From positions 1 to 64,000 of the forward strand of contig JAHDID010000015.1 of NCBI GenBank assembly GCA_020630975.1: a DNA stretch of 64,000 nucleotides, given 5' to 3'. The number at the start of each line of letters is the position of its first letter. Within the stretch, counting starts at the first letter, position 1. This stretch comes from Verrucomicrobiota bacterium (GTDB taxonomy: Bacteria; Verrucomicrobiota; Verrucomicrobiia; Verrucomicrobiales; DEV007). This document shows positions 1-42,176 of the stretch, piece after piece. The position numbers were made by a program, and so were the translations under genes. A model generated the notes under the pieces. That model searched no databases. It was not told the DNA's origin and saw nothing but the letters and a program-made list of their open reading frames with translations.

Positions 1-3000
1 CTAGCTCGTAGGCAGTAGCGCTACCAGCATTTTCCACAAAGATACCGTAGGTGACGGTATCGCCTGCGTCGACACCTCCATCGTTTACGGCTGTCAGATC
101 GCGGTCGTAGGCGACATTCCAATCGGTCAGATCGGCAGTCTGGCCATTGTGTAGCTCAGACGATGTCAGAGGTGAACCTGCTAGCCCGGCGAAACGTGTC
201 GCCCATACGGCATCCGAATCACCAGTGCTATTATCTGCATCAGCTGTAAAGGTCTGCGGTCCCCCCGATGCAGGCGATACAGCTAGCACCGACTTCACCA
301 AATTAATATCAATGTCTGGGCCTACCACGTCGACGGTATCGTCTGCGCTATCGGTGCCCGTGCGGGTGTCGCTATTCGGATCTTCTGTGCTGTTCCAACT
401 CAGCGATACATTGTTATTGATGTCGTTGGTCAGATCCGTATCAGCAGTGGTGCGATTAATCAGCGCTGGATCATCGGCTAGCTCAACGGTGTAGGTGATG
501 ACTGCGTAGTTACCTCGATCGAGTCGGGTGATCTGAGCGGCCAGCTCATGCTCGCCACCATTGATACCAGGCGTCACCGTAGCACTGTCGACTCCACTCA
601 GTGTCACCACGGTGTCGTCACTAGTGTCACCAGTCGTGCCATTATCATTGCGGATCTCTATGTTGCTAGCGGTGATCGTAGCCTCGCCACCGATACCAGC
701 TGTGAGATCTGCGATATCATCGAGGATAGCAAGATCAAACGCATCCGCTGTGCTAGCTGCGGTGTGGCGCACAGTGATGGTATAGTTGATCGTGCCGCTT
801 GGCAGCACGGTATCGACATCTGCCACCTTGGTGATCTCTAGCACTGGCTCGACGATGTCGATCACTGCGATATCGGTGATGTCGGCAGCCTCATCGGTGC
901 TGACAGTCGCACTATTTGTAGCCGTGACACCGTCGACATTAGCTCCGACATTGGAGACTCTAGCTACCACCTGGATGACTAGGGTGTCGGTGTCGTTCTG
1001 CGTGTTGTCATTGACGTTGCCCGGATTCACCACAGTACCGAGCCCGAAAGTCAGCACATCGCCACCTGCCGATTGCGACATCAGGGTATTGATATCGATC
1101 GTCTCAATCAGATCCCCGCCGATGGTCATACCGCCACTGTTCGCTGTGACCTGAGCACTGACAAATTCCAGCGTTCCGTTATTGGCCACTGGTAGATTAT
1201 CGGTGATCGATACATTGCTCCAAGTGCCCTCCTCCAGTGTCAGTCGCAGCTCGTAGGTGACTTCTTCGCCGATGGCCAGATCGACGTGGTCGTCATCTAG
1301 ATCGGTGGTCACGTCATTATCGCCGATGGCATCGGAGCCAGCGGTATGCTGATCCGAGGTATGGGTGGATACGATGACTTTCTCGAAGCTGATCTCAGCG
1401 CCGGTAGCGACCGTCGCGGTATCGGAATCCGTGCCCTCGCGCTCTAGGTCATCACCCGGCTCGTCTGGGTGGCTATCCCAAGTGAGAGTCGCGGTATTGT
1501 CGATGTTCAGGTCATTGACGTCGGCATCGGTCGCGATCGTCGCTGTGTAGGAGACGACGATGGTATCGCCTAGAGCTAGGGTATCGAGACTTAGCGTAAA
1601 GCCATTGCCTGAGGCTACCGGCGTCGCACCTGCGATCGGATTGGTGCCATCGGTGACCGTCACACTACCGATTCCACCGAATACCAGTGGCTCACCAGCA
1701 TCGAACAGATCGGCGATCGCCAGATCGAAGGCATCCTGAGTGGAGGTACCATCGTGGGTGATGGTGAGTGTGTAGTTGACCGTATCGCCAGCATCGACCG
1801 CAGTCGGCGTGACATCTTTTTCGATCGTCAGGACCGGCTCGACCACATCGACCTGCACGGTCGTGCCGGAGTCGATCGTGACCGGTGTGCCGCCATCTGG
1901 CGTGAACTGCACGGTGGCATCGTTTGTCAATGTGGTGAATGTCGTAGGCGCTGTATCCACACCGACATTGGCAGTGATGTCTAGCACCTGTGCTCGCACC
2001 ACGAGCATGAACACATTATTAGCCGTGTCGTTATCCGCAGGCGTCACCAGATCGCTACCAGATAGCGAGAACACTAGATTACCTGTCGCCCCAGCAGTCG
2101 GCTCACTGGTGAAGGCTGGAATCGTGCCGGTGTAGGGATTGGTCGCCACATCAAAGCTAGTCGCAGTGAGAGCACTCTTATCACGCACTGTATCGGCTGT
2201 GTAGGCTCCGCCCGCATTGGCAGTGATATCGGCAGTAGACCTCACCAAATAGGCATCGACAAACTCCATGCCGCTAGGTAGCTCGTCGGTGATCACAAGG
2301 TCGCCGACTGAACCCTCTGGCACAGACACGAGTAGACCGTAGGTCACGATCTCACCGATACCCACATCAGTACCGGCATCCTGAGTGTCAGTCCCGAGTG
2401 CATGAGGATCAGCCGCATTATGCTGTGAGTCTCCTGTGTAGGTCTGATCGGTGGCCAATAGGATTTTGTCCAAGGTCAATGTGCGACCTTCGACGAACGC
2501 CGCCTCTGACAGCTGATCATCGCCTAGCGAGGCATTGGCAGTACCATCCGCAGAAGTCGCATAGAAGTTAACCGTCGCGGTATTCACTTCGCTATCGGTA
2601 GGACCGAAATCGTTACTCACTGTCACGTCGTAGGTGATGATCGCGACATTGTCACCGACCAGATTGTCGACCTCGCTGCGCACCGATATCTCAGCATTGG
2701 TAGCAGGAGCCACCGTGAAGGTGATTTCATTACCAGACAGAGTGTAGTCGACACCTAGCGTCTGAGTGGCACCATTCACCAGTACAGTCGCACTGTTAGG
2801 TATCGGGTTCGTCGTCGTGAACGCTGTCGTGGCGTTATCGCCGACAAAATCCTCAAACACCGAGCGACCTGGGCTGAGCGCCTGGTCGATCAGATCGATG
2901 GTGTACCCATCAGCTGTCGGCGTGACCGTGTAGTGGGTATCCAAGGTCAGTGCTGTGCCATCACCGAGGCGGATCTGGATGTTTGAGATAGCACCCAGAT

Positions 3001-6000: not shown

Positions 6001-9000
6001 GGCCAAGTAACTGCACGGCTGCATCGACTGCAGGCTCGTTACCCGCTGTGAAGACCACATTGCCACTGCCGTCAACATTGTATTCATTTCCTAGGGTCTG
6101 CGCCTGGCCATTGACCAGCACTGTCCCACCGGTCGCATCGGCGGTGAAGTCGTAGGTGGTATTCCCAGTCCCAGCCAGTGTCTCATTGATCAGTCGACCG
6201 GCTGCTAGCGCGTGGTCGGTGAAAGTGATATCAAAGCCTGTGTCGGTGGCTGTCACGGTGTAGTCCGTATCCTGAGTCAGAGTCGTCGTGCCATCGCCGA
6301 GACGGACCACGACATTGCTGAATGTTCCTACGATACCCGCATCATTTACATTAATCTCATAAGCAGGGTCGCCACCGGTGTTCTCGATGATGATGCCATA
6401 GGTGACCGTGTCACCAGCTTCCACACCACCGTTGGCAGTCGTCAGGTCGCGGTCAAGACCGTCATTCCACACGGTGAGATCACCGATACCGTCCGCATTG
6501 TTCGCATCGTTGTGCAGATCGAAGGAGGTGATCACTCCAGCCGGATTATAAGTATCGTCGACGCTACCATCAGCAGCCGATGAGTCTCTACCCGAGTCGA
6601 CGGTAAACTCCTGAGAAGTCCCCAAGTCGCTATTCACGCCCAGCACGGTCTTGACCACATTGATGTCGATGTTGGCGCGAGTCACCTCCAGCTCGGCTTC
6701 GTCGCTGTCGCCATAGGTGCGGCGCTCATCATTGTCCTCGTCGTTTTCATCTACGTTGTGGTAGGTAACCGTCACATCGTTGAGGACATCTTTAGCCGTA
6801 TCGACTATACCGATATCGTTTCCTGAGATATCCGTCGCCACGGTGACTCCATAGGTGATTGTGAGGCTCTGACCAAGAGCCAGATCGATACCGGATAGAT
6901 TGATAGTGTTGTCGCCACCCGTGCCTAAGTTAGACCCATCTGTGTAGTCTGCTCCAGCCGTGAGCTGGATCGACGCGATACCAGCAGTCCCCGTGCCGAC
7001 ACTGGTAGCGGTAAAAGTCGTGCCCGCCAGATTATCTACCGAACCAAACTGGGTGTAATCGGTGCCAACGGACTCGATCCGGTAACTTTGGCCTACGACT
7101 AGATCAGCCGTGCCCAGCCCCGTGCCGAGGATCACTTCTGCACTCGCTGAAGTCGTCCCGGTGAATGCCGTATTAAGCACCAGATTGGTATCGTCTGTGA
7201 TCGATTGGATCACATAGTCCGCGCCATCGATAGTGATGGTATCGCCAGCAGTCAGGTCGGTGGTGAAGCTGGTGCCCACTCCTGAGACTGCGGTGCTACC
7301 ATTGGTGACCGATACCGTATCGCTGAGTAGGCGGGTCACGGTGCCAGCAGCAGTCGATACCGGAGCGACAAAAGTGGTGCCGACTTCGTTATCAGCAGCA
7401 CCAAATGCGGTGAAGTCTGTCTCGCCCTGCGACACGATCGTATAGGTCTGCCCCGCCACCAGATTCGTCGCCTGGTTGTTGAGAGTCACGACTAGATTAT
7501 CATTGATGTAGGCATCCGCTGTCGTCTGACCTGCGTCTAGTGTGAGTGCATCGGCGATGACCAAATCGTAAGCCCCCAGAGAACTATTCTCCGTATGCGC
7601 CACGGTGATCTGGTAGTCGGCAGTACCACCGATACCGACGACTCCACCGGTCAGGATGGTCTTCTGGATATCGAGCTCTGGCTCGACCACATCGACACTG
7701 GCCTGATCGCTGACAGGGTCGGTACCGTTGCCAGTCGTGACCGTAGCTGTGTTGACAGCGATATCCCCATTCAGACTATCGTAGACTGGATTACCATCAG
7801 CATCGACTCGGTCATTGCCGTCGCCATCTTGGAGCTGCTGCTCCTCGACCAGTGCTCTGACACGAATCGTAAAGGTATCGACATCAGTCGTGGTGCGATC
7901 GACCACACCCGAGTTCACGTTTGCTAGGTCGCCAAAATCGAAAGAGAAATTCCCATCGGCATCGACTGTCAGCACCCCGTTTCCAGCGGTCAGATCGAGA
8001 CTCTCTAACAGAGTGCCATTCGAAGTCATCCCCCGCAGATTGTCACCAGCCAGTATCTCGACATCGTGTAAGCTAAATCCAGCAGGCAGTGTGTCACTGA
8101 CCACAAAATTATTCCAATTGGTCTCCTCAACGGTAACTCGCAACTCGTAAGTCACGATCTCACCAGGAGTCACATCGACATAGTCATCCGCAGCGAAATC
8201 CAAGAATGGAGCTGCTGTCGACGATAGCGTGACGGCTCCACCTAAGGCGTCCGATGATAGCAGTTCAAAATCATTACTATCGGTAAAATCAGCATGGCTA
8301 CCCCGAGCGATAGATATCTCGCCTGCATCTGCCCCTGTATTTTCAAAATAGTAGGCATCTAGAAACAAAACATCACCAGCTTGAACATCGAATGTTGCCA
8401 CCGAATGATCGAAGACCGGATCACCAGCAACTTGTGGCGAAACATTGATATCGAAGGCGTAGGTCCTACCAAAGGTGTGGCTAAATCCATCTACGGTGGC
8501 TCCTGCTCCAGTCGGTGCGGTGAAACCATTTGCATCGTGACTGGTCGTGCTAGATCCAGAACCGGAATTATTAACGTCCAACGCAATAATCGCCGATCCT
8601 CCACCAGCCGTGAAGAAACCGGAATACACAGTCGTCTCCGCACTCAACGTAAACGTGACATCTTGAGCGACAGCTTGCACCCCATTGGTAGTCGGATCGA
8701 AGGCATCGCCCACCCAGATAGTCGTGTAGTTGCCGGGTGTGCCGGTGAGCAGCATAGGAGTAATGGTGCCGCCTTGAGTGTGATCGATCACATTCAGATT
8801 GAAATCACCCACATTGTAAGTCCCTGCATCCAGAGTCACAGACGTTTGGTCGACATTCAGGCGGTCGCCCCCAGGGGTATCTCGAGACGTAGCATTGGTG
8901 ATGCTAGCACCAGGGCCTACTGCGGTAGCTGAACCTGACGTCGCTACCTCACTAGCTCCCTCGAAACTTGTAGGACTGCTAGTAACAATGTTTCCTCCAG

Positions 9001-21000: not shown

Positions 21001-24000
21001 TGAAGTCCTGAACGATGGTCACATCGCCATTTGCATAATCCACTGTACCGACTAGACGGTCGTAGCTAATGTTGGCGAGACCATAATTGAAGCGACTACT
21101 AAAAGTGAAAGTCCCTGTGAAATCTGGATCCCGATCATCGACACCATTAAAGGCATTGTTGGTGAGATAATTGGGATTGGTATCTGGGCGATCGATCTCT
21201 CCAGTCTCATAGTCGATCGTCGCGTAGTAGGACGTGTAGGATGCGATGACGTCGCTGAGTGGCTTATTCGCCTCGACAAAAACGACCTCACCTGTCGCGT
21301 AATCGATATTCGCGACCACATTGTTGCTACTATCCACGAGCACCCCGGTGCCGGTATGAAAATCGGTGCCCGTACCAGCGACTCCACCAGCCGTGAGCGA
21401 TGGCACGTCAGTCAGAGTGCTGCTAACACCAGCACTGGTGATCTCCAGCGTGATCGATCCTGGAGCCAGAAATCGATCCATGTAAAAGGTACTAATTGAC
21501 TGATCATAAAAACCCTGACGCCCATCGACAGAACCGGGAGGCACGAGCGCATTGAAGTCAGAGATGATACCAGTGTTCTGATTGCGAATGCCGTAACCAC
21601 CGAACGGAATACCATAAATCTCGCGATCGACATTTTTCAGAATCAAACCCTCAGTCGTCGGGATATCCGTTGCCGTAGCACCGGCATTTTCTAATCCAGT
21701 CGCACTATCCACTACTACCTCCTCGTAGCTGGTGACATTGCGCACTGTGTTAGTCAGCGGGTCAGCTATCCGATCCCGCGTGCCCGAGCTTACCTCAAAG
21801 GTTCCTGGGACAACATTGATATGCCCTCCAGCACCGCCCCAGATAGTCGAGCCTAACACCGGCAGCCCCTGATCAGACGTCGAGCCATTGAATAAATGCG
21901 AGCCACCATGACCGACACTAGTCACCGTGTTGATGAGATTGCCTTCGCCATCGTCAACGATGTTGTAGGCAGCAGCCACATTGACGGTCGAAACGCGATT
22001 GCTGCTATCGGTAAACTGATAGTTGATCGCCTCAGGGAAATTAATATCAACACTGCCCGGAACGATACCGTCCTCAGTCAAAGAAAAGCTCTCCGTGTTA
22101 TTGAGATCGGTCAGATTGACACCGATGAGATCGGCCACCTCTTCGCCAAACTGATTGAACACTCCAGTGGTCTCATGCGATGAGCCTAGGATCACCTTGT
22201 CGATCTGCACATCGCGCCCCTCGATAGTTGCGATATCGGTCTCGCGCTCCCCAGCGATGAAGTTGCCGCCACCGTCACCAGAGGAATAGCTCTCCAGCGC
22301 CACTTGATTGGTCAGCTCCTCATCCGGCTGCCAGCTATCGGCTAGCTCAAGATCATAGGTGATGACGAGGACATTAGTTCCGTCCTCATTAGTGGGGAAT
22401 CCATTATCATACTCCTGGCCGAGTGTGTAGTCACGACCCGCCTGCAGGATACCCTCGCGACCATCGACAGCGAAGTCATTGAAGGTGATCTGAAAGGTAT
22501 TAGCAGTCGCATAAGTACTGCTCAGAGTGAGAGTCTCCACCGTGGAAAATTCGATCGTTCCTGCGGGGACGGTATTATCCGTAGCTGGATCTCCATCCAC
22601 ATCGTGAGCCGCATAGGTGATGGTACCGATCACCACACCATCGACATTCAGGAGATTGCCCTGGCCATCGTCGGTCACGTCTCCGTGAATAGCATCAGTA
22701 AAATTAACGGTTCCCGGCACGATCACCTCGCTATCTAAAGTCAAAACGATCGTCTCGCCATCGGCCGACAGCGGCCCTGTGAGCGTGCCATCGTTGACCG
22801 TTAGCGTATTAGCGGAATTCGCCACAGGCGTACCGACACGATCGTAGAATACCGAGTAAGTCGCTGTACTTGCCTCTACCGTAAACGATATCTCACCCGT
22901 CTGGTAATCAATCGAACCGAGCGGGATATTGCGGTCATTGACTAGGAAGCCATTACCCGCATCACTCAGTACCTGATTGCCACTAGAGAAAACCAGCACC
23001 GTACCTGGGAGGACCGTTCCGTTGAGAGTATCGGTAGCGGTCACCTTACCCGCATTCAGAGTCCCGGTGGCATTGATCAGACTATCATTAGTACCTAGAG
23101 CAGTCGTTACATCGAATGCCGTGTCTAAATTCCAGTTGATCGACAGGCGAATGTCCACCTCGCCACTGGAGTAATTGATCACACCCACTGTCGGATAAGT
23201 CGTGCCATCGATGGTCACATCGGTAGGCGTATTTGGAATCACGTCTGGAACAAAATCTCCCAGAGGATCCACCGCATAGAGATTGCCCTGCCCATCGTCT
23301 CGCACCGTTATGCTGATACCTTCTGGCAAGTCACCTGTCTCAGAGCCGACTATCAGCTCCACAGTATTTGGCACGACTTCGGTGTGATCCAGCTGAGTTC
23401 GGATATTACCATTGCGGATCCCATTGAGCGACTGCTCATCCTGCTGCAGAGCAGCATCTGTCCAAGTGATGTCGTCAGCCGCAAATCCGACATAGTCGCT
23501 AGGGATCGAGACCGCACCGGCTGTCCCACTCACATTGCCCTCAGCATCGAATGTCAGGCTAGATCCCAGTGTGACCACTCCAGTCCGATAGTCGATGAAA
23601 CCAATATTTAGCCCAGTGTGATCTTGGATATGGCCGTAGCCAGTCAAAACATCCTCGTCATTCCGTGTCTCGACATCGCGCAGCGTAGCATGGTATGGCT
23701 GCACCGGATCGCCGACCGGCACCACCTCGCCGGTATTCGACAGAGATATGAGCAGTGACTCTGGAAGAAACGCATCTCCCGGGATCGTAAAAGACGCCCC
23801 GTTGATGGCAGAAAAAGTAGCCGGATCGAGCAACGAACCATCCTGGTTCTGCACCGTGCCTGGAGTATACACCAGCGTGAAGTCAGCCTTGCTCACTTCG
23901 ATAGCCTGCCCACTAGCGGTAGCGCCGGAGAAATTGTCGCTTAGAACCAGAGTCGTATCATCGGTAATAGATTTTACCAAATAATTCACGCCTCCAATCT

Positions 24001-27000
24001 TAATCGTATCCCCCGCTGCGAAATCTGTCGTAAAGGCGGTACCAATGCCCGTGACAGTATCGGAGCCATTGGTCACATCGACCGTGCCAGTAGCAGCGGA
24101 AAAAGAGGCTTCATTCGTACCTAGCACCACATCCGAACCATTGATCGACTCAGCGCGCCCCTGTAGGATTTGGCCATCGCCGGTAGCGATCTGCAGATTC
24201 AGAGATGACAGATCGTAGCCTCCATTAGCATCCGTCGTATCGCTATCGACCAGTGTCGTCTGGCTGCGCTGGAGATTATCGGTAAGCGGGCCGTCGAATA
24301 ATGAATCGGTAAGCACCACATCATAGGCATCGCTACCGCCGATATTCTCGACAAAGATACCAAAGGTCGCGATATCGCCTGCATCAGCGTTGAAGACATT
24401 AGCATCGACGACGCTGGCCCACGAGTTCAAAATCGCATCGAGATTGTCAGTGGCGGGATCGAAATCATCCACGCCGTGTAGGAAAGCACTAGTGATACCA
24501 TCGCCGGCGAGCAGGTCGTTTACGTTCAGACCATCGGCAGTTAGGCCATTACCCACGCCACCGCCAGTAAAGGCAGCCCCCGGCCCACTGGTGCCAGCAG
24601 GAGTGATCTCGACAATACCTTTCCGTACATTCAGCTCAGGCCCGAGTAGCTCGACCGGAATGAAGGAACCATCGGTAGTGGTGATCTGCTCGGTATTATC
24701 AAACTCTAGCTGAGCTTCGTTAGTTAAGAATAGACCGTCGGCGAAGGCCTCGGTATTCACCTTCACCGTGAAAATGATATCAATCACCGCCCCCTCCAGG
24801 ACAGCCTCGTCATTACCATCGTCGGTCTCATTCCACGTACCGAAGTTCCAAGTGATCGTGTTGTTCGTCGTATCAAAATAGACCGTCCCAGCCTGATTAT
24901 TAGGATTGTCTCCATCTCCCTGATTCGCTAGGTCTGGATCGGGATCGAATTCCAGCTCGGTGTCGATCGGATTCCCATCGGCATCTACGATGCGGCTTGT
25001 GTCCACTCGATGATCAGGCCCATAAGCCCACTCGATAAATGATCCGCCGGCATTCTGGTCTTGAGACAGAAACGCATTCGGCAGTGTCGCATTGGTCGTG
25101 CCATCATAGTCAGCGATCTGCTGCACACCCTGCGGGTAGTCAGTCGCCAGATTGAAGACTGGGAAAGGCAGAAAATCATTGATCTGAATATCCTCACCGG
25201 AAGCATACGGCAATACCGTCTTGATCCGATAAGTCACCGTATCGCCAGTGCGTAGGATAGGGTTGTCGATCGAGCCATCCGGATCGCCTTCGTTCAGAGC
25301 GTCGGTCTGGTCCAGCACCGCTAGACCACCACCATTCTCGTCATTAAAAATACTGACTGCATCGGCTGGGTCATCGGACAGGTTATTGATCGCTACGATA
25401 TCTTTATCGATCGTCGCGGGCACGATACCCACATTGGCTCCATTGATACGGATATCGATACCATCCGGACCGTAAGTTTCCGGTAGCACAGCAATCACAT
25501 TGCCATCGCCATCGATAGGTCGGCCCTCCGCATCGAGATTGTCATGGATACCATCAGCATCGGCATCTCCGCTGAATGTCTGGATCTGATCCGCATTGAC
25601 ACTGGTGTAGTTCGACAGGGTATCAGTCAGGTCGACCGAGCTATCACTACCATCGACTGCGCCTTGGTCCTCGGAGACAAAGTTGGGCTGCACCTTGGCA
25701 TAGTAGACGATCGTAAACTTGGGCACCTCGGGTACATCCAAGACCAGATCACCAAAGGTCACCTCTTGATTGGCATCAATGGTGCTCGAATTGTAAAAAC
25801 GGTGATAACCACCTGGTGAATCGGCATTGATCAGACCAGGGTCATCCCCAGCGCCGCCCACACCAAACTCATTATTCACCTCATTGTCGCTGACGTTATA
25901 CGGATCAAACAATCCACCTGCAAAGTAATGGTAGAGATCCAGCTCGCCATCATTGTCCAAATCGAGACCATCGGCGCTACCATCGTTATTCACATCTAGA
26001 CCATTGAGAGACGTGATGTTCAGCTCGGCTCCATCGCTCTCGGTGCGGTAGTTACCACCCACACCGCCGAATAGCCCAGCCTCAGCCACACCATCAGCAT
26101 TGGTATCACCAGTCACCAGCACACCCGTACGATAGTTGAAAGTAATCGCCGCGCCATTGGCAGGCGGCGTATCGAATACCACATCCTGCCCGACGATCGA
26201 CACACCTGCCGTCTGAGCCACACCATTCACCAATACCTGTACCGTGGAGGTAGGCTCACTCAGCGCAAATGTAGTCGTTGCACCGTCACCAGTATGGCTA
26301 TCGCTAACAGCTTGGGAGAATACCCAGCGCATGTAGTTGGAGCCATCATCGGCATTCAGCGTCGCCGGATCGAAGTTCGCCACATTGCCGACGGCATTTC
26401 CATCGGCATCTTCCCATTGGTTCGTCACATCGTTATAGGTGAGATCGTTGAAAATCTCTGGATCTCCAAACGGCACCACTGCCAGAGCCTGTCCGGTGCT
26501 CTGGTTGAATTCCCCCAAGATTACCGAATCATCGCCTACACCCTTACTCTGGAGTGCGATGTAACTTTGGAAGGTCGACATCCCCTCGATGGTATTGTGG
26601 CCGCTTCCCCCGTTGATCTGTAGGCCGGCATCGGTGAAGTACTCCAGACCATCGCCCATCAGATCCTCGATCGATAGATTATCCAATGCCAGGAAGTCGG
26701 ACATATCAAAATTGATGGTGAACTCGACGATATCACCAGGGATCGCCTGCCCGCCTTCGCGAGTCACGGCATTACCATTCTCATCATAGATCGCCGTCAC
26801 ACCTTTTCCTGCACCAGCGCCACCGACTTCTGCACTAGTCAGGTCGGTATCGAGTCGGTAGTCGTCATGTGTCGGCAGATAGGTATCATTGTCGACCACA
26901 TCATTGCCATCGTGAGTGGCTGTGAGGATGGCGTTATTAAATACCTCCCCTTCATTTGGCGTGCCATCAGCACGGAATTCTGGCGCATAGGCCTCGTAGG

Positions 27001-28831
27001 TGATGAAGATATCCCAATTATTATTCCGCACCCGATCTTCGACCCGAGGGTGATTCAGTGTCGTTGAGTTGCTACCATTGCCAAACTCACCACCACTCGT
27101 CACTCCTGCTTCGAAGGCATAGTCATTCTCCAAGTTAGCGTTGTAGCCATCTCCCTCAGCATTATCCACTGCGGTAAAGGAATCCCACGTGAGCACGATA
27201 CTGCCACCTGGAGTATTCGGCGTATCATTAGCGACAAAGGCGTCTAACTGGGCCTGGGTGTAGCCGCCGTCAGGATCAGCGCCATGCGGCTGACCGACAC
27301 GTAGCCCCTCTACGGTAGAGCCATCGCGGTACTGGATTTGAATCGAGTTGGGCACATAGACCAGTCCATCAGGGATCAAGTCGGTTACATTGAGATTCTC
27401 TAGTGTCTCACCCGCTGCGATATCGACATGCAGTGTGTAAGTATTAGGGAAAGAGGGGCCCAGCTGTACCGCTTCTTTAGGACCACTTTTGACCAACTCC
27501 GCCACCTGCGGCACCACACTGCCGGTATCCGCATCGGAGATGATCACCGGATCTTCATCTGGATTATCCAGCGGATCGCAGCCCAGAGCAAAACCACCGA
27601 TCGATGTCACATTCAGCGCATGAGCCTCTCGCTCTGCAGCCGTGCCGTCATAAAACACATTTGCTCCTCTATCCGGATCCAGGCGCGCCTCAAAATCGAC
27701 AATCGAAACCGGCTGCCCAGGAGCATAGCTACCGAAGGGCAGTTGTAGCGTGTAGTAGACATCACCATGCCCAAAAGATGTATCACCGATCAATCCCGTG
27801 GTATCATCGGCCTGCAGACGCAGCTCTGTCAGGGGATGCGAGATCCCTCGATTAAAACCATTTGTGCCCTGCTGGTGGATCGTAGTGACATCCAACGAGG
27901 TATAAGGTGCCACGAAGTAACGATCGCTGGCACCAGCAGCAGTGCCATCTGGCCGGGTGCGCCCAGAGGTGCTGGCCACCTCGAAATATTGGAGACGATT
28001 GGGCAATACATCGCCCGGAGAGTCTGGATCCGGCACATCACCGAATACAGGCGTGAACTCGGTGTCCAGCCCCAGAGCTAGATTCGTCAGCGCCGTGTAC
28101 GAAGCACTGTAGTCGGCGTTGTAGTTCAGATTCGCGGCACTATCAGGATTGGCGGTATCAAACGTAGCGGTAGCAAAGTTGTAGGTGGTGACAGCACCTC
28201 CCGACTGCTCCGTGATCCATGCGTCTGCTATCGACTGCAGTTCAGCCAGAGCGACATTCACATCGAAGACCTGACCCAACGCCTCAATACTCTCACCCAC
28301 TTCCACGCCTTTTAGCACAGCCACATCTGCATCGAAATTAGGCGAGCCATTGCCACCAATCCCTGAATGAGCGAACGTCAAGCCACCATCCATGGTGAAG
28401 TCGATATACGGCGCGTAGCCCGTAGTGCTGCCGGTATTATCAAAGGTGATCGAGAAATCGACATGCTCGCCGATCATTTCCTCATCTGCCCCCCCGGCGA
28501 CACCGTCCACGCCATCGTCAGCCGTATTCGCAGTACCCGGATCTGGTGGCACCGACACACTCTCATTCAGGGCCGCATGAGGCTGACTCATCGTCACTGC
28601 TACCTCTGGCACAGGTGCCTCTCCTGGCGCCGCTGAGAACAATACCCTAGGCTCCAACACCTCCATATGGAGATTTCTCGACTTTTCAGCTCTTAGCTTA
28701 CCCTTACGGCTATCCGATGTCCGTCTCCGACGACTACCCAATCTCTGAATCAGGCTACGGTGGGCACGCATCTTGCTTCTAGAGAAGTACCAGGACTTGA
28801 GCCGTTCAGTTCGACAAGTGTTACAATTCAT
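1..28831 (-). CDS. Giant LEPR-XLL surface protein built from DUF11-like repeats (3' end outside window)
   Basis: This minus-strand frame starts at an ATG at 28831 and has no stop down to base 1, giving at least 9,610 codons and roughly 1 MDa. The N-terminus is basic and carries LEPRVLFSAAP at about residues 59-69, the hallmark of LEPR-XLL proteins, which are large secreted or surface proteins of PVC bacteria. The rest is mostly tandem beta-sandwich modules of the DUF11 type, with recurring phrases such as AGDTVTYGIFVEN, VDVVEPVL and GEEVTYELRLTLEEGTW. It is rich in Asp, Thr and Val, and cysteine is rare in the stretches I translated. LamG, DNRLRE-like and other blocks interrupt it between about 8200 and 22200. 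No clear Shine-Dalgarno precedes the start, and Met21 is an alternative. An adhesive or cell-surface role is inferred; the ligand is unknown. The C-terminal anchor or sorting signal lies outside the window. Confidence 0.93.
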   Translation of the reverse strand, partial: MNCNTCRTERLKSWYFSRSKMRAHRSLIQRLGSRRRRTSDSRKGKLRAEKSRNLHMEVLEPRVLFSAAPGEAPVPEVAVTMSQPHAALNESVSVPPDPGTANTADDGVDGVAGGADEEMIGEHVDFSITFDNTGSTTGYAPYIDFTMDGGLTFAHSGIGGNGSPNFDADVAVLKGVEVGESIEALGQVFDVNVALAELQSIADAWITEQSGGAVTTYNFATATFDTANPDSAANLNYNADYSASYTALTNLALGLDTEFTPVFGDVPDPDSPGDVLPNRLQYFEVASTSGRTRPDGTAAGASDRYFVAPYTSLDVTTIHQQGTNGFNRGISHPLTELRLQADDTTGLIGDTSFGHGDVYYTLQLPFGSYAPGQPVSIVDFEARLDPDRGANVFYDGTAAEREAHALNVTSIGGFALGCDPLDNPDEDPVIISDADTGSVVPQVAELVKSGPKEAVQLGPSFPNTYTLHVDIAAGETLENLNVTDLIPDGLVYVPNSIQIQYRDGSTVEGLRVGQPHGADPDGGYTQAQLDAFVANDTPNTPGGSIVLTWDSFTAVDNAEGDGYNANLENDYAFEAGVTSGGEFGNGSNSTTLNHPRVEDRVRNNNWDIFITYEAYAPEFRADGTPNEGEVFNNAILTATHDGNDVVDNDTYLPTHDDYRLDTDLTSAEVGGAGAGKGVTAIYDENGNAVTREGGQAIPGDIVEFTINFDMSDFLALDNLSIEDLMGDGLEYFTDAGLQINGGSGHNTIEGMSTFQSYIALQSKGVGDDSVILGEFNQSTGQALAVVPFGDPEIFNDLTYNDVTNQWEDADGNAVGNVANFDPATLNADDGSNYMRWVFSQAVSDSHTGDGATTTFALSEPTSTVQVLVNGVAQTAGVSIVGQDVVFDTPPANGAAITFNYRTGVLVTGDTNADGVAEAGLFGGVGGNYRTESDGAELNITSLNGLDVNNDGSADGLDLDNDGELDLYHYFAGGLFDPYNVSDNEVNNEFGVGGAGDDPGLINADSPGGYHRFYNSSTIDANQEVTFGDLVLDVPEVPKFTIVYYAKVQPNFVSEDQGAVDGSDSSVDLTDTLSNYTSVNADQIQTFSGDADADGIHDNLDAEGRPIDGDGNVIAVLPETYGPDGIDIRINGANVGIVPATIDKDIVAINNLSDDPADAVSIFNDENGGGLAVLDQTDALNEGDPDGSIDNPILRTGDTVTYRIKTVLPYASGEDIQINDFLPFPVFNLATDYPQGVQQIADYDGTTNATLPNAFLSQDQNAGGSFIEWAYGPDHRVDTSRIVDADGNPIDTELEFDPDPDLANQGDGDNPNNQAGTVYFDTTNNTITWNFGTWNETDDGNDEAVLEGAVIDIIFTVKVNTEAFADGLFLTNEAQLEFDNTEQITTTDGSFIPVELLGPELNVRKGIVEITPAGTSGPGAAFTGGGVGNGLTADGLNVNDLLAGDGITSAFLHGVDDFDPATDNLDAILNSWASVVDANVFNADAGDIATFGIFVENIGGSDAYDVVLTDSLFDGPLTDNLQRSQTTLVDSDTTDANGGYDLSSLNLQIATGDGQILQGRAESINGSDVVLGTNEASFSAATGTVDVTNGSDTVTGIGTAFTTDFAAGDTIKIGGVNYLVKSITDDTTLVLSDNFSGATASGQAIEVSKADFTLVYTPGTVQNQDGSLLDPATFSAINGASFTIPGDAFLPESLLISLSNTGEVVPVGDPVQPYHATLRDVETRNDEDVLTGYGHIQDHTGLNIGFIDYRTGVVTLGSSLTFDAEGNVSGTAGAVSIPSDYVGFAADDITWTDAALQQDEQSLNGIRNGNIRTQLDHTEVVPNTVELIVGSETGDLPEGISITVRDDGQGNLYAVDPLGDFVPDVIPNTPTDVTIDGTTYPTVGVINYSSGEVDIRLSINWNLDTAFDVTTALGTNDSLINATGTLNAGKVTATDTLNGTVLPGTVLVFSSGNQVLSDAGNGFLVNDRNIPLGSIDYQTGEISFTVEASTATYSVFYDRVGTPVANSANTLTVNDGTLTGPLSADGETIVLTLDSEVIVPGTVNFTDAIHGDVTDDGQGNLLNVDGVVIGTITYAAHDVDGDPATDNTVPAGTIEFSTVETLTLSSTYATANTFQITFNDFAVDGREGILQAGRDYTLGQEYDNGFPTNEDGTNVLVITYDLELADSWQPDEELTNQVALESYSSGDGGGNFIAGERETDIATIEGRDVQIDKVILGSSHETTGVFNQFGEEVADLIGVNLTDLNNTESFSLTEDGIVPGSVDINFPEAINYQFTDSSNRVSTVNVAAAYNIVDDGEGNLINTVTSVGHGGSHLFNGSTSDQGLPVLGSTIWGGAGGHINVVPGTFEVSSGTRDRIADPLTNTVRNVTSYEEVVVDSATGLENAGATATDIPTTEGLILKNVDREIYGIPFGGYGIRNQNTGIISDFNALVPPGSVDGRQGFYDQSISTFYMDRFLAPGSITLEITSAGVSSTLTDVPSLTAGGVAGTGTDFHTGTGVLVDSSNNVVANIDYATGEVVFVEANKPLSDVIASYTSYYATIDYETGEIDRPDTNPNYLTNNAFNGVDDRDPDFTGTFTFSSRFNYGLANISYDRLVGTVDYANGDVTIVQDFNNHVNRNTGETQNFRAEVDYQFTRGVGSDQVANTNNPDRSYDVAVGEEVVYGIVVTIPEGTTEQLVVTDYMPEGLELLDIEIVTEASQSEGLLDSDFSVLATTGDIGISASAPNTLTRATGSFLDDGFAVGQTIDLAGFTNAENGGRYRIEAVTATTITVEQDVLVAEAGDGNQRIDIAYPAFNLVVGDTVYSQRDVQWTHANDELGDNDPFNFPNDHGYAAGADEPYGIFGGQNIQIQFLDGFVNTPDDPQDDTLGDTSDTVDSDQNNTFMLRLVTRVLNGYEYDPSSNGIVRDDSGTSPDLDTTSTVDSPDTEVVATNGTSFDQETGGDPDGNFNGSLMTNTADATYRTGQGQDITLTTDAVNVEIVEPSLNVEKVVLGADFENSFTYTQDGRDYTANEYEVNRDQPVSYQITVSHNDQSTADAYNVSIEDIIMATDFGADSLTLGETLELVSFTIQSSGTSFNGGNPLTLYTSGAFVAPTVDTNSSYNLPELFSYNSDGDVVPFDFAAFQDGWNFDNDGLTSHDLEGTSYGNNGDAQFSLTFAHLPLDEELVITYAVNVTNEAAINNNDNLGDAEQNDVENKVDITWYSLPDRGDTNNAPDGNTDQGSNPEVREYTDSAAATLEIVGPDVDLAIVKGVLSVSPASGTPQTFTQDTTANNDGNTDGVFDDLAFTATVDTSAADVTANLNAAGLPSTVTSAWLHPGQDDVDGDGNAAPNMAWNAQLDRDLLSENGGVDAGDVVTYAIIIENQGTSEAFDVTVSDVLSLINTSGDTSLSSVANINVFRADDPGTSIAFVQSPNPDGDAATDDLQWDFSASDGLTGLLEAGRDREDEALNNTTGSNILVITYEMTIGNNFQALDEVRNDATITSYAATEGGSNEADPLTDSDLSDQAIVEGRTIAVDKQIHDTSLDHTGQVFTAEGVAFTDPALTTLEGAEINVSTLDSFAENAALEVGTVSVNLNGTTYSEIGTGALIQENVTATIGAVDAAAGTIRITNADDIVSGDLVVNDGTSDIALTFDNGTIKDSSGSIVGSYANGADDVTVINLVPGSFAAAVSAEVDREIADINYNDGIITFTENVADAPSVGYTPTVSYTRTFGDAGTTDLTPGETVFYDILVTMPEGVVGNATNGLLITDHLPAGLEVTGLQVITSGADSRLLQSDFGGSTPSIQSVNGDTAINGSDITLTTPIEGQDVVMDFGIVSNPSAVTHDTTNDAFVVRVAARVLNGLTYNPFSNGSDAGASGVADSNGAADSVATNGVALGTETGNPTGNLEGAILTNTASASFVDGQGTTQTLNSGQVNIEVVNPDVVVDKVITSGNLIAPGMSSTYEIRVSHSDRSTGDAFNLTVNDILQHNGLASDVTISGVTVTDSNGTTVTATIDTGTPGEIEVSGFDLAAGEVVTIAYTLTLADTATAAAMSDDNIVAGAAAEQVVFTGVAASAAYTPTLPTAYDLDTNIVITKEYNETFDWTHNTGTNTISFAVPTFVGGESIVIVTQTADGTQTTHPAIAGVADQSDYAFTLPAGETTAQVTIAHPQVRDTDWTYDKDTGAITFTSGFDFDGGEIITADVVSTEADIVNRATATYYNIDDGTNVEVREYQNDDFEGLEVITPDLDVNLVKGVLSVTRADSVDSATTGFTADVTRDSETANLTFGVTPDAAGDIYTITRDAGDFTADYSAGGQITISGTANNDRVYNIVSIDSATQITVQELVTAEGPTSSSLAPADGTVAAAFAVGDTITSDLLHNETSPLDVNSWRDTYDRDLTALNGGVFNGDTVQFGIVVENAGSSEVFEVNLTDQSNLGEIDPGSIQIHLGDGTEVDSANYTVTGALGTGDFAIKFTNFSLAGGNGNTDGTNIAVVTYNVTVRGDSSNAADPAGVESALYTRETNTATVDFYTAEDDSITNFVSEDPDGLLTDVAFVESRGAIAEIDKTVVTSVDSHPHTGSGQHNQPGEDVEIDTIVDVTIPLIDDSFDGDASVINGNFSRARTASAIDPGADGVWTRGAGDWTIAGGALSNVTNANNSDGEAGVALIVDVTSITDTSISELALSFNYTLGDPAEQLFLHAWGVDDTTDGAGLIETGSVGGGGVRNDAIAHVGFRSNGQMPDFTWQGSSPDVLDVYNLFTGTTGVGNPLSTASHGIELTGSAGGPFSTTIDLSSHAFSSLADYDYVLIGFTRNVAGADSAVTIDDVNLSYNTTTGGVTTVAGATDDFFDFAVGETVTYDLEVTLEEGTWNNVVVEDLLPEGFEYVPGSAVISANDAGMTSDSADLAVGQALTPTIDGQKLTFDFGTVDNNTAGAVSGNTDSFTIRLSAVVLDDALNVDGAVRINESTLRALAAVAPSANYTVNDDDDASVDIVEPQLEMRKFVTNENNALSDNSDSSGTYVMPVGDSGDSFRNTIVVDHNQTDATFDRGTGVFSTSADYSLHDSARSASTADAFDLVITDDVADTRLDYAGNLVVTRHNADGSTTVLTAITTGTPGADEYLLREGVDTAAGEGFEIEVPSLGLDQGLVINFDTTLNATITANEVVENIATLAWDSLPEDSDANERSGSDSDDADIQTGNFVDIEKVITGTSLDHTGGDQFNTPGEEPETDGLWNVQVLNVTGTATTTTTGTTPSGPTDITVPNFSFETDLSGWTTAGGAAAVYAPNTTDFPGGADDGTSYVFTETGTNQPGAISLTSESSLATTEANTTYELTVALGHRDFSDAGGRRPDDYRIEILEDGVVVASNTLSNAFENIPAGEWYDLSTSYTATSAGSDVTVRLVHSSDDSTFRQGAFDNVRLTATPTTAQSGTLTFDFDSTADNGAISAGWTDVVGQSYPANQVFGNLSSVGGRGTGGAANGTGGGGQDAAHPNLIMRSPEFTLETGASSISFQIAGGSGVGTASGFATSADAAAFNGGTSGNGTGAVQKAFLRRVGDDSYLIEQGRTSSGISYETIEWNTATLDALIASDPPGTLYTIDWVDTYGHGSNWGFAFIDDVEITGTTFQQESAGGSGSGTTSVSVTAPSSTAIVDRTSSVTDNVVTIPDANNGGTFQATFSPAAGDLDSTTAGVPILEIGGDTNGSGIYLYNGEVYFISKVSGDANVVPSLTNDTDFDTDSSISVKSSFGSLTAGQEYTITAVYDPITGNTLDLVVEPTGGSAVADAFALSNIGVRDNWTGDRSVSAFGAGNLGGSLISTNGDTSSPFHENNLTANQFEGTIGRARFWNDLATVETSTPTGGNSSTTTTNNTTEFNLTSADWQAIWNGTDSGTAEYTGETTETVSYQDTVLNDNPLVYYQLNETSGTTAVNSATTGSTYDATFDTSGGSITVGQASFANGGTAYDFGGGFLEAASALTNSLDEWTVEAWVNYDSAKTSGSNFLSNDQGGWNDDVIIGIGAESGSEGVPGGSVGAIHQGNPGTTRDAAGSALTADEWHHVVITGSTAAGTLTLYVDGVQVAEDTTLANGVTFNGADGFGTANLTIGAARPNSADTGYRPYDGLLDEVAIYGSVLDASVISGHYDAGVATDGGGSSTPTTSGSVSFQEGVSPDGSYVADGTYFRSGSPNANSNGDSDLENIVGWSGSDELRTVLEFDLTYLSDLAGANSITIDSVDLGLTTRGLNQGGTFDMEVYVYPHDLNEGSSTWNNPDGNGQDSTPGGSLGDLVGTVTVASGLADGAGLTLSDSSAFQAAIDAALASGDNALRLILKSSATSAPGGTQFLRLYNEDVGTAANRPSLNIDYTIAGNSTTFDTGSLNVTGDGDSGWTRTGSGGSGANDGSTDGQSFWGTATTEHVGTSDGDELAAGDYTVSFLHAYTAGTHPNTFTVEAFAWDGVTETSLGPASTITLDPGFRVWESGSHTFSIGSDSALLGQDLRLKFTGSGSGDFWGFDSVNVAYEAETSTGAATTSDVTWNVQNRGTSDQESTFNYAGDAADFGGDNAIGSINGGGASNVDTSAPGPFAPTGSEGDHYSVRGDTYIRFEEAGTYTIAFGSADGRNLSLTEAHPGVAPGYSGFTSTGGNIVTSSPTSFEGASEVATSGSATAVGPGASITNATSRDTPGGDRLNVDQTSVTLDAGTYNVGDFNLNVIDHTQGGTITPMLLTGTPGNYTTIWVGDAFDPTTNGVQAVAQDVTFTLSAETTVYSGFFTAGGGSAIIALDVNNSGSGSSTTSHDANGFTAPTGAGATVDGFSHTFGRTYAFDINVSPQVAGDPVFDHSVATFDVQAGDVLFLDAYYFENTGADAGEISIARGSHADFTDSNDFELLSSDALGGAVTLSSTAAPFLDFAADDYVDVTPGEIVTYELRVTVEETNWNNFVVSDTLPAGFSLHDVEILAGDNLRGMTSNGTLLESLDLTAGNGVLTVDADGNFSFDFGDLANVNSGVVDRTTTDVDTFTIRVRALVEEQQLQDGDGNDRVDADGNPVYDSLNGDIAVNTATVTTGNGTDPVSDQASVDVVEPELDIQKTILTGGVVGIGGTADYQITVAHTENSSLGAYDLVIADALTLDAGQTTADAYINDNLVVTLNNQATNLVAGQTYTIVSQGETDFTAFGAADNEVGTTFVAPVSTAAGTVTRLLSDTVSVTNGSTAVSGVGTSFTTDLTAGDTITIDGADYVIQSITDDTNLVLNTAFTGTTSASAEVILGTGLGTADLVVGQSYRIESVGTDYTQFGSVDNLAGTTFTATSVGTGTAGIASIQLTAGADYTDGSNLGTGGDNTINLSGIDLALGQSLTITYGVTVATDISGNDIGIVDTAKDVLNDVTVTYHNVDENDEDNDERRTYGDSDEAELEVTRANIDINVVKTVLGVNSDLGTSQEFTVDSGRDSSAADGSVDDTYNPAGVITSFDLHNDANNADGIGDLTVWNDGLDRDLTTANGGVEAGDTVTYGIIIENTGGDPAYEINVNDAGIVGTFSNVVVRLGDGTTTLTQDTDYTVTATDTGFDITFTDHALAAGRLINETLAGTGNTTYDFTADATGGTVLVNGQAQTLGNEYNVDGSGNVVFTAGNEPAVDAAVQLLGQIDNTAGTNVAVITYDVVVGDDFQALDHRDNVATVDFYTVADNGTGNFALGEDEATSQLSDDAFIEGRTLELNKIILATDYAHTGTDQHNAADPHALGSDTLDAGTDAGIGEIISYGILVTLPEGTTDNLVITDELPSGLEFVDAYVVRSAGDIPSGAGYSAADVATLSGRTTSSFDPAGAAFTGGSRQTFSGDGLTTVFTTAATDLSTAVITVNGTVQTPTIAGNQITFATAPAFGDEIVVTSTLAFSSQPAAGATGDLTFTIDPDADVANLSADSANTFMLVVRAQVQDITANVGVETSSATFTTLTNDANVQFTPGDGSATQTIDSGTTVQVDVVEPVLNIDKAVTPTSVDAGDTVNYTLTITHDGTSTQTAFDLAIADLFDAGEPLVFGGVDTVNVIGATATAVASGNGFTLDIDELALGSTITVTYTATIAEDADVNDLSIDNTATLTWDSHPDEPGDDLEREGTDSDTASVSTGAEISFEKVIVSTHTSEQHNPSGNADTIDGLSDDYVDLKIGEEVTYELRLTLEEGTWDNVVITDTLPTTGAGALEFVSAQVSSNAGAMTKGGVLIEDIAMGSPINGGPLLTQSVDGSTLTFDLGTVINPGDVDDNTANDTDTLIIQVRARVSNVPENVNGVSSTNTATVTTGEGTADITDIAVIDIVEPELTIDKTIPSGDVVRSGGTANYQLEVAHTSDTGSDAFNLNIVDTLTLAGGQTSADAYITNITVSKQVAAVNFEVGQEYTILTVGDTDFTAIGASSNTVGVTFTATAAGVGTGTATQALAVGTDYSDNSNVGPTGTNRLDLSGIHLAMEDRLLINYDVTVPSDLSTNNIGTDNTNSDILNQATLTYTNVENTSNPEIRTYNDDDNEELSVVVASTNVNLVKSVLAVSPASGAPQTFTNHTAHDSNVEATDTVNDDWATILGNIGTTPITSFYLHNDADTTDGLADATVWRNSLDRNLTVDDGGADAGDVVTFGVFVENTGGDPVHELQITDATDLGAISNIQIRLGDGTALTLDTHYTVTPTADGYTIDLIDQALSPGRSVFEDFVGDNATTAFTTTNPIPNSATVLVNGATQTLGVDYTLSGNEITFTVAPATNAEISVRSEVDNLVGDNVAIITYDVTVSNDFGPTDSEVNTATVNFYATSADGTANASLGDDQLSEAAFVEGRTLTLDKILLATDQTYTGDSQHNAADPHALGTDTQDAGTDVGIGEIVTYGLLVSVPEGSVGDLVITDELPSGMEFVDAYLVRSTADITANAGGAYTADTVRDKSALTATSFDVATNPYTGTIPAFTSEPTAGATGNLVFSLSGSDLVTPADNDTANNVFMLVVRAQVLDITANVGVDTAPTTFTTLTNDATVQFTPDGGTPVTIDSGTTVQVDVVEPVLTIEKDVTPTAVDAGDTVNYTLTITHDGTSTQDAFDLAIADLFDAGEPLVFGGIGSVTVTDGTNPIAGATPVASGNGFTLSLDTLALGDTIVVSYTATIATDADVNDLNIDNTATLTWDSHPDEPGDDLEREGTDSDTATVATGAEISFEKVIVSTHTSDQHTAGSDAIGDNDVTTDLDDDHVDLAIGEEVTYELRLTLEEGTWSNVSITDNLPVANNGTLEFVSAQVTANSGGMTIGGDLIETIDINTLMSQSAGGDVLTFGLGTVVNPGNVNDNTQNDTDTLVIQVVARVSNVGANVDGVTATNSATVSTDEAADITDIAVIDIVEPVLEITKVADVDTVLPSGTINYTITVRHTAASTADAFDLAILDDIADLTAGIGGEATITASNIEIRNDNGTTGDTSDDTVVTLSGVDSATVTPGINGGEHELAAQITRLDRGNYAVITYTVELADDPALINRTTADTDLTNDINNNVSLSWNSTEDPNSDTRTGTDSADDTVDVVGPDIDINLVKSVLAVSPASGGPQTFTADADNSTGDSDAVWATRFAGLAGSPLTSSELHNGQTADLTDWNVAYDRDLTAVNDGGVDAGDTVTYGIFVENAGSATAYEL
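281..3325 (-). repeat. Super-repeat unit A of the giant protein (about 3.05 kb)
   Basis: The unit runs from one NLVKSVLAVSPASG phrase (coding bases near 3326) to the next (near 281). It holds about five DUF11-like modules in the same order as unit B. Landmarks recur with small indels: the tract at 868 matches 4021 (offset 3153) and the tract at 1371 matches 4533 (offset 3162). The peptide phrase NTATLTWDSHPDEPGDD occurs in both units. Confidence 0.8.
3326..6640 (-). repeat. Super-repeat unit B of the giant protein (about 3.3 kb)
   Basis: This is the neighbour of unit A with the same module order. It begins at a VVKTVLGVNS phrase near 6640 and ends at the NLVKSVLAVSPASG phrase near 3326. It is slightly longer than unit A because of an extra segment near 5300-5460. 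Related but more diverged units begin near 24620, 19090 and 16150. Confidence 0.78.
8180..13255 (-). other. Approx. 1,690-residue nested insertion with LamG, DNRLRE-like and lectin-like modules
   Basis: Translated on the minus strand, the DUF11-like module breaks off after VDIEKVITGTSLDHTGG (near 13260) and resumes at PGEIVTYELRVTVEE (near 8140). Between them lie, in order: a CBM-like block starting VPNFSFETDLSGW; another beta block; a LamG/concanavalin-like domain at about 11190-10510 (NDNPLVYYQLNETSG, then WTVEAWVNY, then DEWHHVVITG); a DNRLRE-like block at about 10450-9800 (YFRSGSPNANSNGD, TVLEFDLTYL); and further beta-rich segments. LamG and DNRLRE are known sugar- or surface-binding folds. 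The boundaries are approximate. Confidence 0.7.
14350..15155 (-). other. Approx. 265-residue lectin-like insertion in a DUF11-like module
   Basis: The host module breaks after VDSHPHTGSGQHNQPGED (near 15150) and resumes at VGETVTYDLEVTLEEGTW (near 14340). The insert (SFDGDASVINGNFSRA onward to FTRNVAGADSAVTIDDV) is Gly/Ser/Asp-rich and looks like a jelly-roll sugar-binding domain, but I cannot name the family. Confidence 0.6.
17690..18275 (-). other. Approx. 195-residue insertion in a DUF11-like module
   Basis: The host module breaks after VDKQIHDTSLDHTGQVF (near 18250) and resumes at PGETVFYDILVTMPEG (near 17680). The inserted segment has no family I recognise. It occupies the same position in the module as the other inserts. 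Confidence 0.5.
20885..22188 (-). other. Approx. 430-residue insertion in a DUF11-like module
   Basis: The host module breaks after KVILGSSHETTGVFNQFG (near 22180) and resumes at VAVGEEVVYGIVVTIPEG (near 20870). The insert contains short internal phrases that recur in this half of the protein, such as GTVDYANGDV, IDYATGEVVF and IDYETGEID, which suggests several small repeated beta hairpins. No named family was recognised. Confidence 0.5.
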
Positions 28832-30692: not shown

Positions 30693-30843
30693 ATCGGTAC
30701 TGAGACACACTAGACTACGCTGAACTGTAGCCCAGCCTTACGAATATCTTAAGGCCGAAGTCGATGCGTCGCCACATCAGTCATCGTAGCGTCTGCGCAT
30801 GATCTCGCCGATTCTCTTTGGTCAAACGTCGAGGCAAACTCGA

Positions 30844-31548
30844 TTATTCTCCCCCAGCGCCACTGTAAATCACCCGGCCTGCACCATAGCTCGGCAAAGT
30901 ACCTTCCCCATACAAGCTCACCGGCAGTTTGGACCTTTGGCTCCCGGAATTACTGCTGAACATGAGACTGTCGATATCGGACTTGGGGTCAGCCTGACGT
31001 AGATAACCACGAGATATTTCCAGCTTTTCGATATGAGTCCCGTCCTCCTCGCTCTGGGATAGCTCGACGCGCACGATCATCATCACTAGCTGCCCTGCAG
31101 GAGCCTGTGCCACACTGACCCAAATTTTGCGACTGTGCTCACCATTAGGCCCGACCCATTTTTCAAAGCCTGCCCGGCCATGATCACCCAGCATCTTCGA
31201 AAGAATGGCGAAACTCTGGCAAGCCTCTAGGTGCTGACGGCTCGGCAAGCGAGAGACCAGAGTCGGGCTATCGCCCACGGCTAGACTGCCATCGGGCTCT
31301 ATACTAAAAAGCTGTACAGCGCCATCGTCGACCATACCTTTCTCCAACCGCACAGCCGTAAAGCTGCCATCGTGCTCCCGAATCGAGCCCACCCAGTGTC
31401 GAGACAATGGCTTGGGATCACTCGTCTCAGCCGGCTGGGCCTTGGCCGTCTGAATCAGAGCCTCTAGCGATACGGTCTCGCTAGCGGTGCTAAATCCAGA
31501 AAAACAAGCTGCACAGCAAACCAAGCAAAGATAGGACGCCATTCTCAT
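30844..31548 (-). CDS. Secreted protein of unknown function
   Basis: 234 residues with an N-terminal signal peptide (MRMASYLCLVCCAACFSGFS, cleavage likely near STASE). The mature part is mixed alpha/beta and contains GRAGFEKWVGPNGEHSRKI and a repeated beta pattern (VSVAQAPAGQLVMMIVRVEL). I recognise no family. It sits 39 bp downstream of the Kelch gene on the same strand and is probably co-transcribed with it. The C-terminus (YGAGRVIYSGAGGE) has no anchor. A periplasmic or exported location follows from the signal peptide. Confidence 0.75.
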   Translation of the reverse strand: MRMASYLCLVCCAACFSGFSTASETVSLEALIQTAKAQPAETSDPKPLSRHWVGSIREHDGSFTAVRLEKGMVDDGAVQLFSIEPDGSLAVGDSPTLVSRLPSRQHLEACQSFAILSKMLGDHGRAGFEKWVGPNGEHSRKIWVSVAQAPAGQLVMMIVRVELSQSEEDGTHIEKLEISRGYLRQADPKSDIDSLMFSSNSGSQRSKLPVSLYGEGTLPSYGAGRVIYSGAGGE

Positions 31549-31587
31549 ATTAGTAGAATGTTAGCGTAACTTAATCTTTTTCACAAC

Positions 31588-32577: not shown

Positions 32578-32641
32578 AGAAATTATGATTCAAACATGAA
32601 ATAATCAATCCAACAAACAGCCGCGTCCACTTCAACATGCA

Positions 32642-38587: not shown

Positions 38588-38610
38588 TTGCTGGGACGCC
38601 CTATTTTGGA

Positions 38611-42168: not shown

Positions 42169-42176
42169 CAAATTTT

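Follow-up and report, generated by a model that had tools for sequence, protein, structure and literature searches.

A giant LEPR-XLL protein of Verrucomicrobiota, probably an extracellular fibrillar adhesin with self-stapling units

The minus-strand gene that occupies the first 28.8 kb of the window (the whole 64,000-nucleotide stretch that was analysed) quite likely encodes an extracellular fibrillar adhesin with a LEPR-XLL start, isopeptide-stapled units, a lectin-like block and a C-terminal domain, exported by a non-Sec route. Along this protein, the LEPR-XLL end would be followed by about 26 CnaA-like units of the CLIPPER/DUF11 type and, in the last place, by the C-terminal domain; the units would staple themselves by Lys-Asn isopeptide bonds into a stalk resistant to proteases and tension, the lectin-like middle block is the candidate binding part, and the gene would be one of two tandem paralogous giants. 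The protein is expected to unfold little under load and to resist proteases, two properties that the available part of PMC12617251 gives for CLIPPER domains. The pairing of the conserved ends, together with the lysine economy of the protein, is new here.

The giant frame and its parts

On the minus strand, the window is free of stop codons from 28864 to base 2 (9,621 codons), and the ATG at 28831 gives a protein of 9,610 aa that is open at its 3' side, with no stop up to base 2. The tandem paralogue backs this start: it begins at the same position, and its N-terminus is 69% identical over 87 compared columns. An earlier note, made from the letters of the window, had reported an uninterrupted frame of more than 28.8 kb, and this is confirmed; as it also held, a plain start-to-stop ORF search misses the gene, since the frame is listed solely when open ends are permitted, and the antisense shadows are found inside it as four other frames of at least 150 aa, all of them on the plus strand and 150-196 aa long. 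The parts of the gene are the following.

2..28831, minus strand: giant open frame that runs off the contig end (ORF calling with open ends, 9,610 aa from the ATG)
28658..28831, minus strand: basic N-terminal stretch, residues 1-58, common to the tandem paralogue and, by eye, also to C40 and C144a
28625..28657, minus strand: LEPR-XLL motif LEPRVLFSAAP, residues 59-69 (model match at residues 54-74)
13304..27442, minus strand: first DUF11/CLIPPER-type unit array, containing long inserts, residues 464-5176 (Pfam/NCBIfam and unit profile)
8189..13303, minus strand: block without DUF11-type units (no unit-profile matches), candidate binding head, residues 5177-6881
12638..13117, minus strand: HpiC1-like domain PF22825, residues 5239-5398 (E 1.1e-22)
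10499..10993, minus strand: concanavalin A-like lectin domain Laminin_G_3 PF13385, residues 5947-6111 (E 1.3e-19)
2..8188, minus strand: second DUF11/CLIPPER-type unit array, truncated at the contig end, residues 6882-9610 (Pfam/NCBIfam and unit profile)
1400..1858, minus strand: modelled unit, residues 8992-9144, with the predicted triad Lys9005, Asp9041 and Asn9112 (AF2 model)
1..55, minus strand: branch-point end of 55 bp, an exact copy of the C105 contig tail, where the two tandem giants converge (contig-end comparison)

Conserved ends of the protein

The LEPR-XLL model NF012209 matches the window protein with 19.9 bits (27.2 bits in the genome search) against a curated cut-off of 17, and the motif stands at residue 59 of at least 9,610. 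The place in the LEPR-XLL group that had been read from the N-terminal LEPRVLFSAAP is thus borne out by a score above the cut-off, and the description of the gene as a LEPR-XLL giant in a lineage of the PVC group is upheld. The same model finds LEPR-XLL in 52 of 190 relatives and in 24 of the 387 genomes of the phylum sample.

For the other end, a profile of the C-terminal domain was seeded with six copies from the own genome (G000) and iterated over 400 frames from own and related stretches; it matches 34 frames, in 34 of 34 cases within 70 residues of the C-terminus, and none of the 400 reversed frames. The training frames match this profile by construction, although their terminal position is not implied by the training. 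Eleven of the 34 frames lack their 5' part because of a contig end, the limit of the stretch taken or an N gap, and a LEPR-type start is present in all 23 that have an intact 5' end (20 by the regular expression and three as the variants LEPRILFDAS, LEPRVLFDAA and LEQRTLFDAT); since 13 of these 23 had been chosen for the C-terminal domain, the N-terminal motif in them is an independent observation. Seen from the N-terminal side, there are 32 LEPR-motif frames of at least 1,000 aa, seven of them cut or gapped before their end; the other 25, with an intact 3' end, divide into 20 with the C-terminal domain and five without it (two on C126 and one each on C128, C129 and C88), and in the own genome 8 of 13 LEPR frames carry it. 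This pairing weakens beyond the genus, where 2 of 13 further LEPR frames with intact ends match the domain at E <1e-6 (G110 and G056), five others end, by eye, in RTX-like repeats, and four more ran off their contigs. Two frames picked by domain match also reach the profile, that of G357 at 1.4e-29 (it starts LEDRVLYNAMP) and that of G359 at 7.2e-17.

The C-terminal domain occurs in 20 of the 190 relatives and in 20 of the 387 genomes of the phylum sample, of which only G000, G357 and G359 exceed 60 bits, the rest being short partial matches. It is absent from Pfam and NCBIfam as judged on four scanned copies, which gave nothing in Pfam beyond Big_13 (E 0.074) and DUF2934 (E 0.093) and no match in NCBIfam at E up to 1. 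An Ig-like core is followed, in the main subgroup, by a GRRL...N.DWR tail; the model of the domain from two sequences is of low confidence (pLDDT 43.4). In the available portions of the literature on LEPR-XLL, no treatment of this C-terminal domain was found.

In another family of the order, the LEPR giants (loci L200, L201, L208, L209, L211 and L212) mostly have other ends: by eye, five of them (G115, G178, G136, G122 and G076) show RTX-like repeats and a shared hydrophobic tail, and G110 matches the C-terminal domain weakly (E 8.5e-9).

Export route

A Sec-type hydrophobic core is absent before and over the motif in 32 of 32 LEPR N-termini by hydropathy scan, the maximum mean hydropathy over 15 residues being 0.73 around the window motif and at most 1.44 in the 32 N-termini, against 1.9-2.9 in signal-bearing neighbours. 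Since no Sec-type signal is present, non-Sec export is most likely, with an exporter that would most likely recognise the conserved ends of the protein. Tentatively, the LEPR-XLL motif and the C-terminal domain may be two address tags of a dedicated, previously undescribed Sec-independent pathway that would export and anchor giant self-stapled fibres in Verrucomicrobiota, the tags being kept alike between the tandem paralogues by gene conversion. The paired ends are small pieces (about 70 and about 180 residues) that would allow export tests without a protein of 10,000 residues.

The same protein might possibly leave the cell through an ABC exporter of the LssB type, the C-terminal domain acting as an uncleaved signal in the manner of LapA/SiiE-type adhesins, and the lack of a Sec-type core in the 32 N-termini examined speaks for this type I route as well. 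Two LssB exporters of the own genome exceed the cut-off, neither of them adjoining the window gene; one copy, on C40, lies about 5 kb from a giant frame with Big_9 repeats and about 40 kb from a LEPR gene. With five candidates scored per genome and kinship ignored, LssB passes the cut-off in 11 of 52 LEPR genomes versus 10 of the 138 others (p 0.0097); for genomes whose C-terminal domain is strong, the counts are 4 of 7 versus 17 of the 183 others (p 0.003), but inside the genus the comparison (4 of 7 versus 7 of 26, p 0.19) is not significant, and contig ends truncate a number of the copies, for example those of G004 and G025. On the same five candidates per genome, 41 of the 52 LEPR genomes are without LssB over the cut-off, including the one-contig genome G110 with its LEPR frame of 11,336 codons. 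RTX families, moreover, are absent from the 9,610 aa of the window protein (Pfam at 0.01, NCBIfam at 0.1 and a five-segment scan), which is therefore not an RTX adhesin, as judged on its readable part. Given this mixed distribution of LssB, a type I system and the dedicated pathway are equally tentative candidates for the exporter, an LssB-kind type I system being the best known candidate.

The neighbouring genes were considered as exporter or partner of the giant and set aside on a comparison of stretches around giants: by blastp against 423 frames called on contigs of the own genome, only the two sulfatases, the 859-aa protein and the giant itself have matches among the window genes, and by tblastn seven neighbours (29640-43176 and up) have no match at 1e-5 in the own and relative stretches around giants. 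Elsewhere in the window, a single chain of 759 aa (47085-49364, plus strand) combines a fatty-acid desaturase domain, a Rieske domain and an FAD/NAD reductase, and a 1,981-aa TPR-repeat protein (32642-38587, minus strand) has a C39-like peptidase domain inserted at residues 313-421.

Repeat units and predicted isopeptide bonds

The unit families score above their cut-offs in TIGR04226 (155 bits) and TIGR01451 (133 bits), PF24595 reaches 31.1 bits in the first half of the protein (cut-off 27), and PF01345 reaches 44.2 bits in the second half (cut-off 24.6) and 17.1 bits, under the cut-off, in the first. A profile built from one unit finds 26 copies in the window protein and gives 112 aligned copies over eight related proteins, in which the Asp of the predicted triad is conserved in 99 of 105 copies and the Asn in 94 of 98. 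Matches to bMG10 and DUF2460 were discarded, no single stretch having passed.

Lysine makes up 0.62% of the giant (60 of 9,610 residues) as compared with 4.14% of the other frames of the window, and yet the strand motif that surrounds the expected bond lysine is counted 25 times in it, where 200 shuffles give a mean of 3.15 and at most 9. Two versions of the Lys regular expression were used, of which the strict one, with a fixed upstream stretch, finds fewer units than the looser one, which covers all residues back to the previous unit. By the looser version, the motif lies upstream of 22 of 24 units, at Lys-Asp distances of 36-37 (five units), 56-60 (five), 103-110 (three) and 76-1,730 (nine others), two units being without it, and in 6 of the 22 motif-bearing units the Lys is located 178-1,730 residues ahead of the Asp; by the strict version (about 100 residues upstream), the motif is found in 41 of 103 copies from eight proteins (control stretch: 4 of 103), and 30 of 103 copies have the complete Lys-Asp-Asn triad.

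The AF2 model of residues 8992-9144 (pLDDT 84.9, pTM 0.81) ranks streptococcal and enterococcal pilins at the top in Foldseek, and its VIA-align Z values are 14.6 for EbpB, 14.2 for Thermus TTHA1873, 13.9 for the CLIPPER structure 9ifr, 13.5 for an integrin and 13.0 for RrgB. Because the integrin beta-sandwich itself reaches 13.5, this fold is a widespread type of sandwich and its match, taken alone, is unspecific, so that the argument has to be made from the residues. The triad of the modelled unit has spacings of 36 and 71, close to the Lys-Asp-Asn spacings of 38 and 69 listed for DUF7619 in the accessible text of PMC12617251, where DUF11 is also renamed CLIPPER and its isopeptide bond solved. 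The units thus look built for internal Lys-Asn isopeptide bonds, a prediction from sequence, and by the tests made here (families, triad residues and CnaA-like fold) the window protein is a member of the CLIPPER-type adhesins; it would function in the manner of other giant cross-linked adhesins. The lysine pattern makes isopeptide stapling in a Gram-negative giant a clear and cheap prediction.

It is unlikely that the protein serves predation as a hook or tether, in the way of the Aureispira grappling hook protein GhpA. The unit profile, compared with all PDB sequences, does find GhpA (9flp) as its best match, at E 2.7e-10, while the single-sequence search of the unit against the same sequences gave no match at 0.1; the Aureispira hook proteins are secreted and bind prey flagella, according to the part of PMC11205867 at hand. 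The similarity, however, is between common CLIPPER-like units, with E 1.4e-6 for the best single stretch, and GhpA is a type IX substrate, whereas SprA_N was matched in 0 of 190 relatives, a count to be read with the equal silence of the control genomes. Adhesion, with the central block as the putative binding head, is the reading preferred here.

Integrity of the frame and course of the missing 3' end

That the frame arose from repeat expansion, a mis-join or a shadow frame is very improbable. The assembly is of a short-read style, with exact 55-bp overlaps common to its contig ends, and the 3' end of the gene is unsettled; however, the 28.8-kb gene contains no exact internal repeat of at least 30 bp, and with an apparent overlap length of 55 its own repeats would therefore give no branch, which makes a collapse or expansion unlikely and leaves the artefact inside the frame that the earlier note had allowed for without support. 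Chance is no explanation either, since in 100 base shuffles of the gene, read in three frames each, the longest stop-free run has a mean of 171 and a maximum of only 262 codons; in the other five real frames across the gene it is 201 codons. The GC content by codon position (0.58/0.47/0.56) is close to that of the neighbouring genes, and the substitutions between the gene and the paralogous contig C105 are of the coding type, with 27 of 34 differences in the last 255 nt at third codon positions. LEPR giants with intact ends also exist in other assemblies, and the one-contig genomes G110, G313 and G206 hold LEPR frames of 11,336, 14,158 and 19,216 codons, respectively. Strain mixing or mis-binning may be a source of error at the locus.

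The leftward extension to the stop that had been proposed is impossible, because the window starts with the first base of contig C95 (in an assembly of 7.14 Mb and 158 contigs) and the gene end is out of reach from there, but a continuation can be inferred from the contig-end overlaps. Contig ends in this assembly overlap by exactly 55 bp: the gene tail on C95 is identical to the tail of C105, the gene tail on C133 to the head of C105, and the head of C54 to the head of C133 at its other end, where both contigs begin inside the frame for the C-terminal domain. When the final 265 bases of C105 are searched as DNA against the genome, 10 matches appear, of which only C95 and C105 are fully identical through the shared tail, and the C-terminal-domain profile search found just two near-identical copies, at the heads of C54 and C133. 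C105 was rejected as the direct continuation of the window gene, since it shares with C95 its tail and not its head, the head matching the end of C133. The simplest path would accordingly run from C95 through a missing repeat to C133, C105, the same repeat and C54, which would put gene B, spread over C133, C105 and C54, 1,147 bp behind gene A (the window gene); alternatively, C133, C105 and the repeat may form a circle of their own.

On either path, the 3' end is missing because of a repeat common to the window gene and its tandem paralogue, and the repeat node that would link the gene to its C-terminal end is absent from the assembly, which counts against the adhesin as reconstructed here. 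The two copies of the C-terminal domain differ by one residue, however, so under either path the window gene would have almost the same domain at its end. These copies (L117 and L051, at the C54 and C133 ends) differ at 14 of 576 nt, 13 of the 14 differences being synonymous, and the similarity of C54 and C133 falls off straight behind the stop codon, a pattern that gene conversion or a recent duplication would produce. Since 1,063-1,731 aa separate the last matching unit from the protein end in four homologues, the full-length protein probably has about 10,700-11,300 aa; its minimum on the simplest path would be about 9,800 aa.

Size and comparison with known systems

The earlier view that proteins of this size are among the largest known in bacteria was overstated. 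The same genus has tandem LEPR-XLL frames of 18,544 and 16,801 codons (G004:C57:111549-218105, L157-L162), both carrying the C-terminal domain 67 residues ahead of their ends, a one-contig genome of the phylum reaches 19,216 codons, and an Omnitrophota bacterium has a protein of 39,678 aa, as given in the available part of PMC10066038; in view of the larger frames in the genus and in one-contig genomes, the size of the window protein is ordinary for its kind. The PVC phyla are described as rich in proteins of more than 5,000 aa in the accessible portion of PMC11573180. LEPR-XLL giants are frequent in the group, yet in the literature available in part the name is rare and mentioned in passing.

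The own genome has 18 LEPR-XLL matches over the cut-off, on contigs C133, C144, C95, C137, C49, C40, C88, C158, C52, C126, C125, C128, C129, C138 and C56; 17 lie in open frames, which range from 2,179 to 9,621 codons, and C144 carries three in tandem, C126 two. The same genome has another class of giants, with VCBS/Big_9-like and glycine-aspartate repeats (C117, C18, C5, C96, C6, C156, C101 and C51), mostly cut at contig ends.

Among the known systems, the window protein resembles the LEPR-XLL proteins of NF012209 in being giant and repetitive and in its N-terminal motif above the cut-off. A LEPR-XLL protein of Vibrio (about 8,000 aa) has RTX and serralysin-type domains at its end, according to the available text of PMC10868602, whereas no RTX was found in the window protein, which would end in an uncatalogued domain. 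With the CLIPPER (DUF11, PF01345) adhesins, it shares the unit family, the CnaA-like fold, the Lys-Asp-Asn residues and a tandem stalk, but it has far more and longer units with large inserts, and LEPR-XLL replaces the signal peptide; Verrucomicrobiota and Planctomycetota are not mentioned in the accessible part of the CLIPPER paper (PMC12617251). The 7,651-residue adhesin of Mobiluncus mulieris is likewise a giant with many internally cross-linked Ig-like domains, but it is Gram-positive, LPxTG-anchored and built with both ester and isopeptide bonds, and LEPR-XLL is not reported for it in the part of PMC10619420 consulted. GhpA (PDB 9flp) is giant and extracellular and has related units (the match given above), and differs as a heptameric hook of 5,898 aa, secreted by type IX in Bacteroidota, in the account given by the available part of PMC11205867. 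Finally, the Omnitrophota giants belong to a lineage of the PVC group and have proposed roles in adhesion or predation; the 39,678-aa protein has 42 predicted transmembrane helices in the accessible part of PMC10066038, whereas the window protein is smaller and composed of CLIPPER-type units.
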